DNA of 22,168 nucleotides from a virus. Numbering within the stretch: the stretch's first letter is position 1; every line of letters begins with the position of its first letter. A program made the translations under genes and the position numbers. Shown piece after piece: positions 3,179 through 20,623 of this stretch. Where the stretch lies: positions 1-22,168 of IMG/VR virus record IMGVR_UViG_3300003321_000100; one strand, 5' to 3'. A model generated the notes under the pieces. The model was not told the DNA's origin and did no database searches. It worked only from the letters and a program-made list of their open reading frames with translations.

Positions 3179-3398
3179 GGACGAGCTTGCATGGGACTTG
3201 GTCAAGGCTGCTGTCCGTGCGAAGGTGAACCTTGAGGTCGCGGCCTACCGCAACCGCAGGGTGAACGAGATTCTCGCGGAGCTATGGCCTGCGTTCCAGG
3301 CGTCCCTGAATGGCGAGGAGATTCTGCAGATCGAACCCGACTACGGCACCTGGGTTGCCGACGCAATTGAGACTAGTCGCAGCGGATCAGCAGCGTAA
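3156..3398 (+). CDS. hypothetical protein, 80 aa
   Basis: ATG preceded by GAAAGGAG, a good ribosome site. The product is mostly helical with mixed charge (DLVKAAVRAKVNLEVAAYRNRRVNEILAEL) and a Trp/Tyr-containing end. No membrane segment, no cysteines, no recognised family. It is placed directly before the exonuclease and overlaps its start, so it is probably co-translated with it. Confidence 0.65.
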   Translation: MDFIPKTEDELAWDLVKAAVRAKVNLEVAAYRNRRVNEILAELWPAFQASLNGEEILQIEPDYGTWVADAIETSRSGSAA

Positions 3399-3966
3399 AG
3401 TCCTGAGCTTCGACATCGAGAACCGTCCACTGTCCTATTGGTACGGGGACGTCACGACGTCGGAAATCACGGCTATCGCTTGGAGTTGGAACGACCCGAA
3501 GAAAATCGAGGTTCGCGTGTTGCCAGAGGTGACACCTGAGGAAATGCTCCACGATTTCGTGGAAGCATACGCGGCTGCAGACATCGTGACTGGACACTAC
3601 ATCCGTCGCCATGATCTGCCCCTCGTCAATGCTAGCCTCATGGAGTATGGCATGGACTTGCTCCCTAGCAAAAAGACCTCAGATACGAAACTCGACCTGG
3701 CTAAGCGGGCGGGTCAGCCTGCTACGCTCGGCCACCTTGGGGAAATGCTCGGGGTCAAAGTCCCTAAGTACGGCATGAGCCAAAAGATGTGGCGTGCCGC
3801 AAACCGACTGGACGATCCCGATGCAATCGAGTACACGAAGAAGCGCGTCACCTCAGACGTGGCATTGCAGATTCTGGTTCGGAACGAGCTACTCAAGAAG
3901 AAGTGGCTCAAGGTTCCGTCCTTCTGGCACAGTGTGGCCGGAGGACTGATTATTCAGGAATCGTAG
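3367..3966 (+). CDS. DnaQ-like 3'-5' exonuclease (RNase H-like fold)
   Basis: Probable DEDD-family 3'-5' exonuclease acting on DNA. Exo I is LSFDIEN near residues 13-19 (Asp and Glu), Exo II is TGHYIRRHDLPLV (Asp), and Exo III is YTKKRVTSDV, with Tyr four residues before the last Asp region. The TTG at 3367 gives 199 residues with Exo I close to the N-terminus, as usual. An upstream ATG at 3310 would add 19 residues that look like a shadow of the overlapping gene. No ribosome site is strong for either. It is not fused to a polymerase, so it may proofread for a separate polymerase, process ends in recombination, or degrade host DNA. Confidence 0.82.
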   Translation: MRLVAADQQRKVLSFDIENRPLSYWYGDVTTSEITAIAWSWNDPKKIEVRVLPEVTPEEMLHDFVEAYAAADIVTGHYIRRHDLPLVNASLMEYGMDLLPSKKTSDTKLDLAKRAGQPATLGHLGEMLGVKVPKYGMSQKMWRAANRLDDPDAIEYTKKRVTSDVALQILVRNELLKKKWLKVPSFWHSVAGGLIIQES

Positions 3967-4195: not shown

Positions 4196-4369
4196 GTGGA
4201 GATTGAACTCGATATCCAACTCGTCCCGGCTGAGGACGGTACGGCAGTCCTAACCGTTAGTGGCCCGATTGACGGGGTCATCCTGGCCTATGGCCTGGTA
4301 CGGCAGGGACTGTCGATGTTCTCTCCGGATGATGAGGACGGCCCGCTGGGAGATTCCAGTGTCGGTTAG
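4196..4369 (+). CDS. hypothetical protein, 57 aa
   Basis: GTG at 4196 follows a strong AGGAGG at 4186-4191 with about 4-bp spacing, which decides this start over an in-frame ATG at 4145. The product begins MEIELDIQLVPAEDGTAVLT and looks like a small beta-strand-rich acidic protein with a Gly-Leu-Val-Arg segment and an acidic tail (SPDDEDGPLG). No family recognised. Confidence 0.6.
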   Translation: MEIELDIQLVPAEDGTAVLTVSGPIDGVILAYGLVRQGLSMFSPDDEDGPLGDSSVG

Positions 4370-4571
4370 GGCAAGCTATCTCAAAAGTGAGACGGTAGAG
4401 TTTCCCCTACACGCTGGTGCGTCAGTACGCGGATCGGGCAAGCCGATCAACTTCGTAGTCATGAACGAGCCGGGAAGCGTGGCCGTCACCTTGACGCACG
4501 CCACACGCTTGTACTACGCTCTGCAAGAGGTTCTCATCCAGCAGGGCGTGCTAGATCGCACGGAGTCGTGA
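4359..4571 (+). CDS. hypothetical protein, 70 aa, last gene of the left arm
   Basis: GTG at 4359 follows GGGAGA at suitable spacing and overlaps the previous stop by 11 bases. A longer frame from 4260 exists but overlaps the preceding gene by more than 100 bases. The product has beta-type stretches (INFVVMNEPGSVAVTL) and a helical end (YYALQEVLIQQG). No family recognised. It is the last + strand gene before the convergent junction. Confidence 0.6.
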   Translation: MSVRASYLKSETVEFPLHAGASVRGSGKPINFVVMNEPGSVAVTLTHATRLYYALQEVLIQQGVLDRTES

Positions 4572-4668
4572 AGGGCGGAGCGAGGCCCTGCATGCATAAG
4601 TAGCGACTCCCTCCAACGCCCGAAGGTGAGACAGGCACCGACCTTGTCCAGAAAAACGGAGAGGGCAC

Positions 4669-4709
4669 AGACCCAAGGTTAGCACCGTAACCAATCGCAG
4701 GGTCTTTTT
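4669..4709 (+). terminator. possible intrinsic terminator, nested hairpin with T run
   Basis: AGACCC (4669-4674) pairs with GGGTCT (4700-4705); inside it GGTTA (4677-4681) pairs with TAACC (4688-4692). A run of five T (4705-4709) follows. It lies about 100 bases after the last left-arm gene. The long loop makes it weaker than the one at 4868-4906, and it could instead be one helix of a structured RNA. Confidence 0.45.
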
Positions 4710-4715
4710 CTACAA

Positions 4716-4756
4716 CCCAGGGGCGCTGTCAGGGGAGTGCTACCCCTGCCCCTGGG
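4716..4756. other. bulged inverted repeat (8 bp + 6 bp stem)
   Basis: CCCAGGGG (4716-4723) pairs with CCCCTGGG (4749-4756). After a 6-base bulge on the left, CAGGGG (4730-4735) pairs with CCCCTG (4743-4748), leaving a 7-base loop. There is no direct T run after it (GAAAATTTTGCC follows), so it is not a standard terminator. It may be an RNA structural element or a protein-binding site. Confidence 0.55.
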
Positions 4757-4867
4757 GAAAATTTTGCCTGGTGGCTAATGGCCCGTAACTAACGCCGACC
4801 TACGACCGAATCTTGATCCCAGGGCGCGCTACGGTGAGAGTGGAGGCCCGGTAGGGTAACCAGGCAC

Positions 4868-4906
4868 AAAAAAGAAGCCCCCCGGCGAAAGCCGGGGGGC
4901 TTTTTC
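4868..4906. terminator. strong bidirectional intrinsic terminator between the two arms
   Basis: A perfect 10-bp GC stem, GCCCCCCGGC (4877-4886) with GCCGGGGGGC (4891-4900), closed by a stable GAAA tetraloop. TTTTT follows on the + side and a run of A precedes it, so the - strand transcript also ends in U residues. It sits exactly where the + strand early operon and - strand late operon converge, and should stop both. Confidence 0.92.
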
Positions 4907-4911
4907 TATGC

Positions 4912-4998
4912 TTAGACCGCTGGAAACCCTGCAAAGACTCCGATCACTGCACATACAGCAATCACAGCCAAGCAGAGGTCTGCGAAAGAGAACGCGAT
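4912..4998 (-). CDS. possible 28-residue membrane peptide without a standard start
   Basis: On the - strand a frame ending in TAA (4914-4912) reads as a strongly hydrophobic peptide (FADLCLAVIAVCAVIGVFAG). A perfect AGGAGG lies just upstream (rc of about 5007-5012), but no ATG, GTG or TTG follows at normal distance in this frame; the best-placed codon is ATC at 4998-4996. An in-frame TTG further in would be too far away. Either a rare start is used, or the ribosome site is fortuitous. It would be the last gene of the right arm. Confidence 0.25.
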   Translation of the reverse strand: MAFSFADLCLAVIAVCAVIGVFAGFPAV

Positions 4999-5026
4999 AG
5001 CGCCTCACCTCCTTGCATAGAACGTC

Positions 5027-5242
5027 TTACAGCGGGAAGCCGTCCCACAAGAAGTGGAGCGGTAGCCACGTGCAGAACGCCACGATAGCAAGGAATCCCG
5101 CGAGGTGTCCGCGTCCCTGCTTCACATAGGAGGTAGCGGTATGTGTATTCGGATCAGCATCGAACTCAGCAATCACGTCCGCTGCTATGAACATCACAGC
5201 CGCAGTCCCCATTAGGAAGTACAGAATGCGGGCCTTAGTCAT
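5027..5242 (-). CDS. small two-pass membrane protein
   Basis: 71 residues from ATG, with two hydrophobic segments: residues about 6-25 (ILYFLMGTAAVMFIAADVIA) and about 48-66 (LAGFLAIVAFCTWLPLHFLW), joined by a polar loop. Size and layout fit a holin or antiholin, or an unrelated small membrane protein. It is near the end of the late operon, downstream of the endolysin. GAGG precedes the start. Confidence 0.65.
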   Translation of the reverse strand: MTKARILYFLMGTAAVMFIAADVIAEFDADPNTHTATSYVKQGRGHLAGFLAIVAFCTWLPLHFLWDGFPL

Positions 5243-5433: not shown

Positions 5434-5577
5434 TTACTTGTCAAGGTCTTTGTTGAGGACAGCGGCGAATATCTTGCCGCAGTCACAGGACACAACCGTC
5501 ATCTTCTTTCCCTCACGTACACGAGGGGTGCAGACGTGGGGCTTAGGCCCTTTGCGCCTTGCGAATCTCCGCCACAC
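5434..5577 (-). CDS. small zinc-ribbon-like protein, 47 aa
   Basis: GTG at 5577 preceded by GAGGAAG, stop TAA at 5436-5434; it overlaps the end of the amidase gene by 35 bases. The N-terminus is basic (WRRFARRKG), then His14 and Cys16 (HVC) and, after a short turn, Cys31 and Cys33 (CDCGK) could bind one zinc. Short basic HxC...CxC proteins like this are frequent in phage late and early regions; their role is unknown. Confidence 0.5.
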   Translation of the reverse strand: MWRRFARRKGPKPHVCTPRVREGKKMTVVSCDCGKIFAAVLNKDLDK

Positions 5578-6082
5578 GGCGTCGAATCTTCCTCATCACA
5601 CGCCGCCTCGGGTAGAAGAAACCCGGATCGGTGTGGGTTCCGCCGAAAGCCTTGGAGACCTCGGCATGGGTGGTAACACCCTTCTTGCCAGCACGCAACT
5701 CGCTAGCATCCACGAAACGCGGGGGGATATTGTACCTCACGCACCAGTGAGCCACGCGGTCGGCTACCTTATTCAACTGCCGACGATGCTTGAGCCACTG
5801 CCACTTCTTCCAGGCGGCGAAACCTGCCTGCTCGATGTGAAGTCCATTGGTATTCGCGCCGGGAGCGCCCCACGGAATGTCAAGGTCAGAAAGAGTGCGA
5901 TAGCACTCCTTGTCATCGACACAAAGCTGGGCCGATCCCTGAGAGGCATGGTTGGCGAACCAAGCAGCCGCTCCTCGTGCCGTCCACGCTTCCTCATCGT
6001 GAAGAACAATCCACTTGATGGAGCTAGCGAATCGCCTTCCGCTCGACTTGGTTGCCTTGAACTCTCTACTGCACCGAACCAT
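5543..6082 (-). CDS. N-acetylmuramoyl-L-alanine amidase endolysin (amidase_2 / PGRP family)
   Basis: Probable endolysin that cuts the amide bond between muramic acid and the peptide stem to release virions. The zinc site is visible: His28 in IVLHDEE, His139 in TTHAEV and Asp152 in HTDPG, with Glu84 in LHIEQAG in the catalytic region. At 179 residues it is a single catalytic domain with a short, strongly basic C-terminal tail (RRRVMRKIRRRV) instead of a cell-wall-binding domain; the charge may do the binding. The ATG overlaps the TAA of the holin candidate by one base (TAATG), so the two are co-translated. Confidence 0.9.
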   Translation of the reverse strand: MVRCSREFKATKSSGRRFASSIKWIVLHDEEAWTARGAAAWFANHASQGSAQLCVDDKECYRTLSDLDIPWGAPGANTNGLHIEQAGFAAWKKWQWLKHRRQLNKVADRVAHWCVRYNIPPRFVDASELRAGKKGVTTHAEVSKAFGGTHTDPGFFYPRRRVMRKIRRRVAEIRKAQRA

Positions 6083-19351: not shown

Positions 19352-20623
19352 TTAGTAGCCGAGGTCGGTGAGACCCGTCATCTTCGCAGACGAGTTCCGC
19401 TGATCCGCGACCATTTCGACGTCGCGCTGCAGCGCCCACTCCCACCTGTCGTATCCGGTCACCCAGTGAAGGAAGTGACCGTCCTCGTCAAGCGGCTGGA
19501 AGTCCGAGTCAGCGGCGAGGCGGATTGCCTTCTCGTCCGGCATGAACACCGAACCGAGCGGGCAGTCAACGTCACCGATGAACGGGCGATCCATGAACTG
19601 CAGGACGCGGAATCCACCTTCGAGCTTCATCGGCTCAACGAACTGAACCTGACCCTGCAACTCCTTGAAGTACTCGCGGATGATGCCGAAGGTCGTGATG
19701 ATGCTCCTGGACTCCTTACCAGCGGTGATGCGCGTCTTGTTCCACAGAGCGTGGAGGTCGTCAGAGTCGAAAGCTCCACCGGAGTCATCGACCTGGGACT
19801 TCCAGTCCGAGAGACCCGCATCAGCCGGGTCGAGGCCACCAAGAGGCTCCTCGGAGATAACCGCCGAGATTCCCGTGAGGCCCACGTTACCCGCCGAGTC
19901 AACCGTACCGGCCCGCACGAGGAAGTCCCCGGCAGCCCAGCCAGTGTCGTCTGCGACGAGAGTGATGCTCGGGGTGTCCACATCGACCGAGGCAACCTCG
20001 CTCGTGCCAGAGGCACCAGCGTTCTCAATCGAAGCGAAGTTATCCGTGGCGTCGAGCTTCATGCCCGGATAAATCCACCCCATGCGAATCGCCTGGTCGC
20101 TCGTCAGAACGAACACGCCAGAACCGGAGTCCGTGGCGATCTTGGCGATTGCGGCAGAGGCGTTAGCCTCACCGTCGGTGATACCCGAACCCGCAGCGGT
20201 CGCAGCCCCTGCGATGTCGAATCCACCATAGACCTGTCGCGCGAAGTCGTCACGAAGGTCGCGCTGCAGTCCGTCGGCCTCAAACTTGAGGGCGCGAGCG
20301 AAAGCCGCAGCGTTCGAGCGAGTGGAGCGGACGGACTGACCCGTCACTTCACCACGCGCGTAGAGGGACTTGAGGTTGTAAATCGCCCGCTCCGGGTTCT
20401 GATGCCCAGCAGCCGGGAGTGCCCCGCGCTCACGCGCAGGCCCGATGCCACCGGAACGACCCAGGGACAGAGCGACGACAACCTTGAGGCCCTCAACGAT
20501 TCCGTCGGCGTTAGCCTCAAGGCGCTTGGCGAGGAGAACCTCGTCATTGGTCTGCCGGACAATGCCCGGAACATAGACCTCCTTGAGCAACGCCTCGATG
20601 GTATCTCGTCCGGCACCAGCCAT
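19352..20623 (-). CDS. major capsid protein
   Basis: 423 residues, starting MAGAGRDTIEALLKEVYVP from an ATG preceded by AGGAGG. The N-terminus is helical, the middle is rich in Gly, Ala, Ser and Asp with a variable insertion-like part (residues about 190-290, VDVDTPSITLVADDTGWAAG), and the C-terminal third has FRVLQFMDRPFIGDVDCPLGS and HWVTGYDRWEWALQRDVEM, which fit the end of an HK97-type capsid subunit. It directly follows the scaffold gene, as the shell subunit does in this class of phage. No N-terminal delta domain is obvious, consistent with a separate scaffold. Confidence 0.85.
   Translation of the reverse strand: MAGAGRDTIEALLKEVYVPGIVRQTNDEVLLAKRLEANADGIVEGLKVVVALSLGRSGGIGPARERGALPAAGHQNPERAIYNLKSLYARGEVTGQSVRSTRSNAAAFARALKFEADGLQRDLRDDFARQVYGGFDIAGAATAAGSGITDGEANASAAIAKIATDSGSGVFVLTSDQAIRMGWIYPGMKLDATDNFASIENAGASGTSEVASVDVDTPSITLVADDTGWAAGDFLVRAGTVDSAGNVGLTGISAVISEEPLGGLDPADAGLSDWKSQVDDSGGAFDSDDLHALWNKTRITAGKESRSIITTFGIIREYFKELQGQVQFVEPMKLEGGFRVLQFMDRPFIGDVDCPLGSVFMPDEKAIRLAADSDFQPLDEDGHFLHWVTGYDRWEWALQRDVEMVADQRNSSAKMTGLTDLGY

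Follow-up and report, generated by a model that had tools for sequence, protein, structure and literature searches.

A putative bidirectional intrinsic terminator and an unusually long 3′ spacer at the convergent operon junction of an IMG/VR virus

Gene setting of the convergent junction

The window analyzed here comprises bases 1-22168 of an IMG/VR virus record that is 31295 bases long. On the + strand, it has a replication-type operon with genes for a helicase-primase (161-1471), endonuclease VII (1676-2035), a sigma-factor-like protein (2427-2945; phrog_351, E 1.7e-9), and a polymerase-type exonuclease (3310-3966). Weak counterparts of the sigma-factor-like protein were seen behind the SSB-like gene in several relatives. 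The tail of the operon encodes small proteins and ends at position 4571. Its last gene (4359-4571, taken from the ORF list with an inferred GTG start; codon score 0.11 for 4362-4571) encodes a protein of about 70 aa, for which searches of PHROGs and Pfam gave no family. The - strand encodes small membrane-type proteins, an endolysin (5543-6082), and structural proteins, with the major head protein at 19352-20623, and terminase-like and portal-like genes (named by inspection) follow past the window end. The last clearly coding gene of the - operon (5027-5242, from the ORF list; codon score 0.24) encodes a 71-aa membrane-type protein, which also gave no family in PHROGs and Pfam. The two operons converge at 4572-5026.

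It was found that positions 4572-4911 are without genes on both strands. Over 4572-4900, the codon-usage scores were about 0 or lower in nearly all 90-base windows of the six frames, and the stray ORFs scored from -0.08 to -0.36, as compared with about 0.07 to 0.42 in real genes. A hidden or frameshifted gene in the gap was ruled out by these codon scores and by in-frame stops. A search of the region for tRNA and tmRNA found none. The gene-free character that the initial annotation had assigned to the junction, between 4571 on the + strand and the genes of the - strand, was thus borne out. The first part of the gap (4572-4668) is non-coding DNA past the + operon with weak folding only (z -2.02 on the + strand and +0.66 on the - strand), and a structural match to it was sought in the relatives and none was found.

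The length of the gap depends on a small ORF of the - strand (4912-4998). If this ORF is real, the gap ends at 4911 and is 340 bases long; otherwise, it ends at 5026 and is 455 bases long. On the - strand, AAGGAGGTGA (ribosome-binding site, 5014-5005) is followed by an ATC codon 9 bases past GGAGG and then by 28 open codons, IAFSFADLCLAVIAVCAVIGVFAGFPAV. By its sequence, this frame would be a single membrane helix, while the codon score of 4917-5000 is weak (0.06). The ORF may encode a 28-aa membrane mini-protein with a rare ATC start, which would be the last gene of the - operon, or the start codon may be an assembly base error.

The stem-loop at 4872-4905 and the folding of the spacer

A stem-loop predicted to be a bidirectional intrinsic terminator lies at 4872-4905, between the convergent stop codons at 4571 (+) and 5027 or 4912 (-). 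In a relaxed scan, it has a 15-bp stem with 10 GC pairs, a 4-base loop (GAAA on the + strand), seven A residues on the left, and seven T residues on the right. Since an A-tract lies on one side of the stem and a T-tract on the other, the element has the form of a terminator in both directions; the T-tract directly after the stem is CTTTTTCT on the + strand and CTTTTTTG on the - strand. A strict terminator scan called a 12-pair GC-rich stem with a T-run on the - strand and did not call the + side, although the sequence ends in CTTTTTCT. The stem-loop alone (4869-4908) gave z of -6.26 (+) and -4.85 (-). The strong terminator that had been noticed at the end of the stretch is therefore present, and it faces both ways.

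It is known that intrinsic terminators are often bidirectional between convergent genes and that their 5′ flanks are enriched in A (PMC7566282). Such terminators have been described in Escherichia coli and Zymomonas mobilis (PMC7566282; Ju et al. 2019 Nat Microbiol, cited in PMC11585934). The element at 4872-4905 resembles them in its GC-rich perfect stem, its tetraloop, the A-tract before and the T-tract after the stem, and its position between facing stop codons. It differs from them in being a predicted terminator and in having about 300 more 3′ untranslated bases on its + side.

The whole stretch of 335 bases (4572-4906) folds with z of -2.75 (+) and -3.16 (-). These values are due to the terminator, because 4572-4866, from which the terminator is excluded, showed no folding stability beyond its composition (z -0.22 on the + strand and -0.50 on the - strand). 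The initial annotation had described several inverted repeats in order and a 102-base domain closed by a perfect helix as candidate RNA structure. All of the repeats were found, including the perfect 8-bp helix between TGCCTGGT (4765-4772) and ACCAGGCA (4859-4866), but they do not stand out as extra structure. When perfect 8-bp arms separated by up to 110 bases were counted, 4572-4866 had two inverted repeats, as compared with an average of 0.44 in the shuffles. One or more such repeats occurred in 37% of the shuffles and in 36% of the equal-length stretches of the window, and two or more occurred in 6% of each. Thus, the series of inverted repeats is near the expectation for such a stretch. 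The interior of the 102-base stretch (4765-4866, +) also folds at chance level, with z of -0.10 (+) and -1.86 (-), or -0.48 with short flanks (4757-4869).

Two other hairpins were seen on the + strand. In the first (4669-4709), a GGTTA/TAACC stem is enclosed by an AGACCC/GGGTCT stem, and TTTTT comes next; this hairpin is a candidate weaker intrinsic terminator (z -1.79 for 4664-4712). It is absent from the output of the strict terminator scan, and its sequence suggests that it is possibly an auxiliary upstream terminator. The second (4716-4756; inverted repeat I5) is a stable hairpin, CCCAGGGGC...GCCCCTGGG, with an inner CAGGGG/CCCCTG pairing and no T-tract directly after it (-26.3 kcal/mol, z -2.23). 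Outside the terminator, this hairpin alone is somewhat above chance, with z of -2.2 to -3.2 for a feature that was picked after the fact.

Could the region act as DNA, for instance as an origin of replication or an array of protein-binding sites, rather than as an RNA? Short units are repeated there (CAGGGG, CCCCTG, and CCCAGGG, twice each), and the GC skew turns at the junction. However, two operons coded in opposite directions would produce such a skew turn anyway, the repeats are few and within chance, and in most of the relatives that share the helicase, the gap is 31-80 bases long, which leaves no room for such an element. I give this explanation very little credence.

A degenerate tandem duplication with units of about 100 bases (4674-4765 and 4772-4866) was also considered. 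The chosen pairing beat 99.6% of the shuffles; it was rejected after an unbiased self-comparison, which was equalled by 44% of the shuffles.

Convergent junctions and homologues in other phages

Close relatives were sought with the exonuclease and with an 833-aa structural protein, and none were found. The helicase search led to relatives with 36-48% identity, the amidase search to relatives with 27-50%, and the terminase and capsid searches to relatives with up to 76% and 73%, respectively, whose contigs are without the junction. Among the relatives whose terminase is 70-76% identical, the closest is contig G001 (terminase 76%, capsid 73%), which breaks off within its homologue of the 6748-7062 gene and so falls about 2 kb short of the junction. 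In bacterial and archaeal genomes, only distant helicases (23-46%) were found. The nearest readable junction is that of L043 (helicase 48%, endolysin about 50%), and it gave no blastn alignment to the junction of the window.

I compared 21 convergent junctions, with facing genes downstream of the helicase block, in the helicase relatives (36-48% identity). In 20 of the 21 junctions, the gap or its edge contains a stem-loop of 7-18 bp that has A and T residues next to it. The independent cases are somewhat fewer, since the records include near-duplicates (L061, L062, and L070, for example). The exception is L077, in which the ORF ends overlap and no stem-loop match was found. The stem sequences vary among the relatives; thus, the form and the place have been kept, but not the sequence. 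These related uncultivated phages (L043-L086) share with the window the gene order, that is, a helicase-primase, an SSB-like gene, and a convergent block with a bidirectional stem-loop, while they differ from it in the stem sequences and in the gaps, which are 31-198 bases as opposed to 340-455 bases in the window, the longest of the 22 junctions.

In three relatives (L043, 6992-7070; L086, 7683-7728; L075, 9866-9921 on the - strand), the junction terminator is immediately preceded by a domain of about 45-80 bases that is closed by a helix (z -2.1 to -2.7); the strand is not the same in all three. These domains have no clear common sequence and no Rfam match. A motif common to the window and L043 (GCCGACCT and the closing helix before the terminator) looked alike by eye and was dropped, as neither blastn nor a covariance model supported it.

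No known family had been recognized in the stretch, and a covariance search of Rfam 15 agreed with this, with no match at the gathering score; nearly all of the weak matches below the threshold lie on the terminator. A blastn search of the region against phages, down to E 10, found nothing, and against plasmids, it found two weak matches only, both on the terminator. With single-sequence covariance models of the two halves of the stretch (R1 and R2), 69 sources (0.94 Mb) were searched and no further copy was found, the sole match outside the window being at chance level (E 8.1). On 34 whole records, the R1 model (4712-4868) matched only the window's own record (G000). This absence of covariance matches is weak evidence, because a model built on a single sequence can detect only structures that are fairly similar to it.

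The length of the gap, 340-455 bases, is a counterpoint to the terminator reading, as it is unexplained by a terminator alone. One explanation is that the 300 bases are leftover DNA, such as the relic of an insertion or of a gene that has been lost, which is now an unconstrained spacer before the terminator. The coding signal is absent in all frames, the gaps of the relatives are much shorter, and no sequence homologue was found, all of which are consistent with this origin. On the other hand, the region contains no recognizable gene or element remnant, and its self-similarity is that of chance (44% of the shuffles as high), giving no sign of a decayed duplication. I consider a leftover origin possible but on the unlikely side. 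It is compatible with the terminator reading, since the latter concerns the terminator.

Another explanation is a small RNA specific to this lineage. It would be processed from the 3′ end of the + operon message or transcribed from a promoter of its own, and it would end at the terminator and include the hairpin at 4716-4756 and the 102-base domain. The somewhat higher stability of this hairpin than that of the shuffles and the excess of the gap over those of the relatives would fit such an RNA, as would the helix-closed domain directly before the terminator of L043, the nearest comparable junction (z -2.69). However, that domain could not be aligned by blastn with the one in the window, and the latter folds at chance level. 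In addition, no promoter-like site was found in the region, Rfam gave no match above the threshold, and structural matches were found neither in the 69 sources nor, with the 4712-4868 model, in the 34 whole records. A small RNA of this makeup is thus improbable. Small RNAs from mRNA 3′ ends have been reviewed (PMC9438474). Any transcript here would resemble them in ending at an intrinsic terminator after an operon, whereas a promoter and a conserved structure were sought in the region of the window and neither was found. Also improbable is a phage small RNA or stable 3′ untranslated RNA that is specific to the lineage, is roughly 140-340 bases long with its end at the terminator, and has a function linked to the change from the replication operon to the lysis and structural operon. 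A functional small RNA is possible, and one stable hairpin and the gap length make up the positive evidence for it.

Interpretation of the junction

As judged from the sequence, the junction very probably combines an intrinsic terminator that acts in both directions with a 3′ intergenic spacer of unusual length. The analysis established the sequence, its fold by prediction, its freedom from genes, and the stem-loop that recurs at the junctions of the relatives; that termination truly occurs at 4872-4905 is inferred. The junction would then serve as the common 3′ end of two convergent phage operons. In the RNA of each strand, the GC-rich stem-loop, with the A-tract and the T-tract at its flanks, would fold into an intrinsic terminator. 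Transcription of the replication operon would be halted there as it arrives from the left, and transcription of the lysis and structural operon as it arrives from the right. This may keep each operon from being read in the antisense direction by transcription of the other. The approximately 300 bases before the terminator would be a 3′ untranslated spacer, in which the hairpins at 4669-4709 and 4716-4756 might act as a weaker upstream stop for the + strand or protect the mRNA end.

The initial annotation had suggested a non-coding RNA or a structured messenger end. The messenger end is supported in an ordinary sense, with a strong terminator at the end of the stretch and perhaps a weaker one before it. 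The non-coding RNA is unsupported, as no excess folding and no similar phage or plasmid sequence was found outside the terminator, and the searches gave no Rfam family and no structural match in the relatives. The junction looks ordinary, not like a new RNA. It also gives a caution that a single strong terminator can lend apparent structure to a whole intergenic region. At the same time, a regularity emerges: in diverse uncultivated phages with this helicase-primase, the place where the operons converge is nearly always marked by a stem-loop terminator that is bidirectional and varies in sequence.
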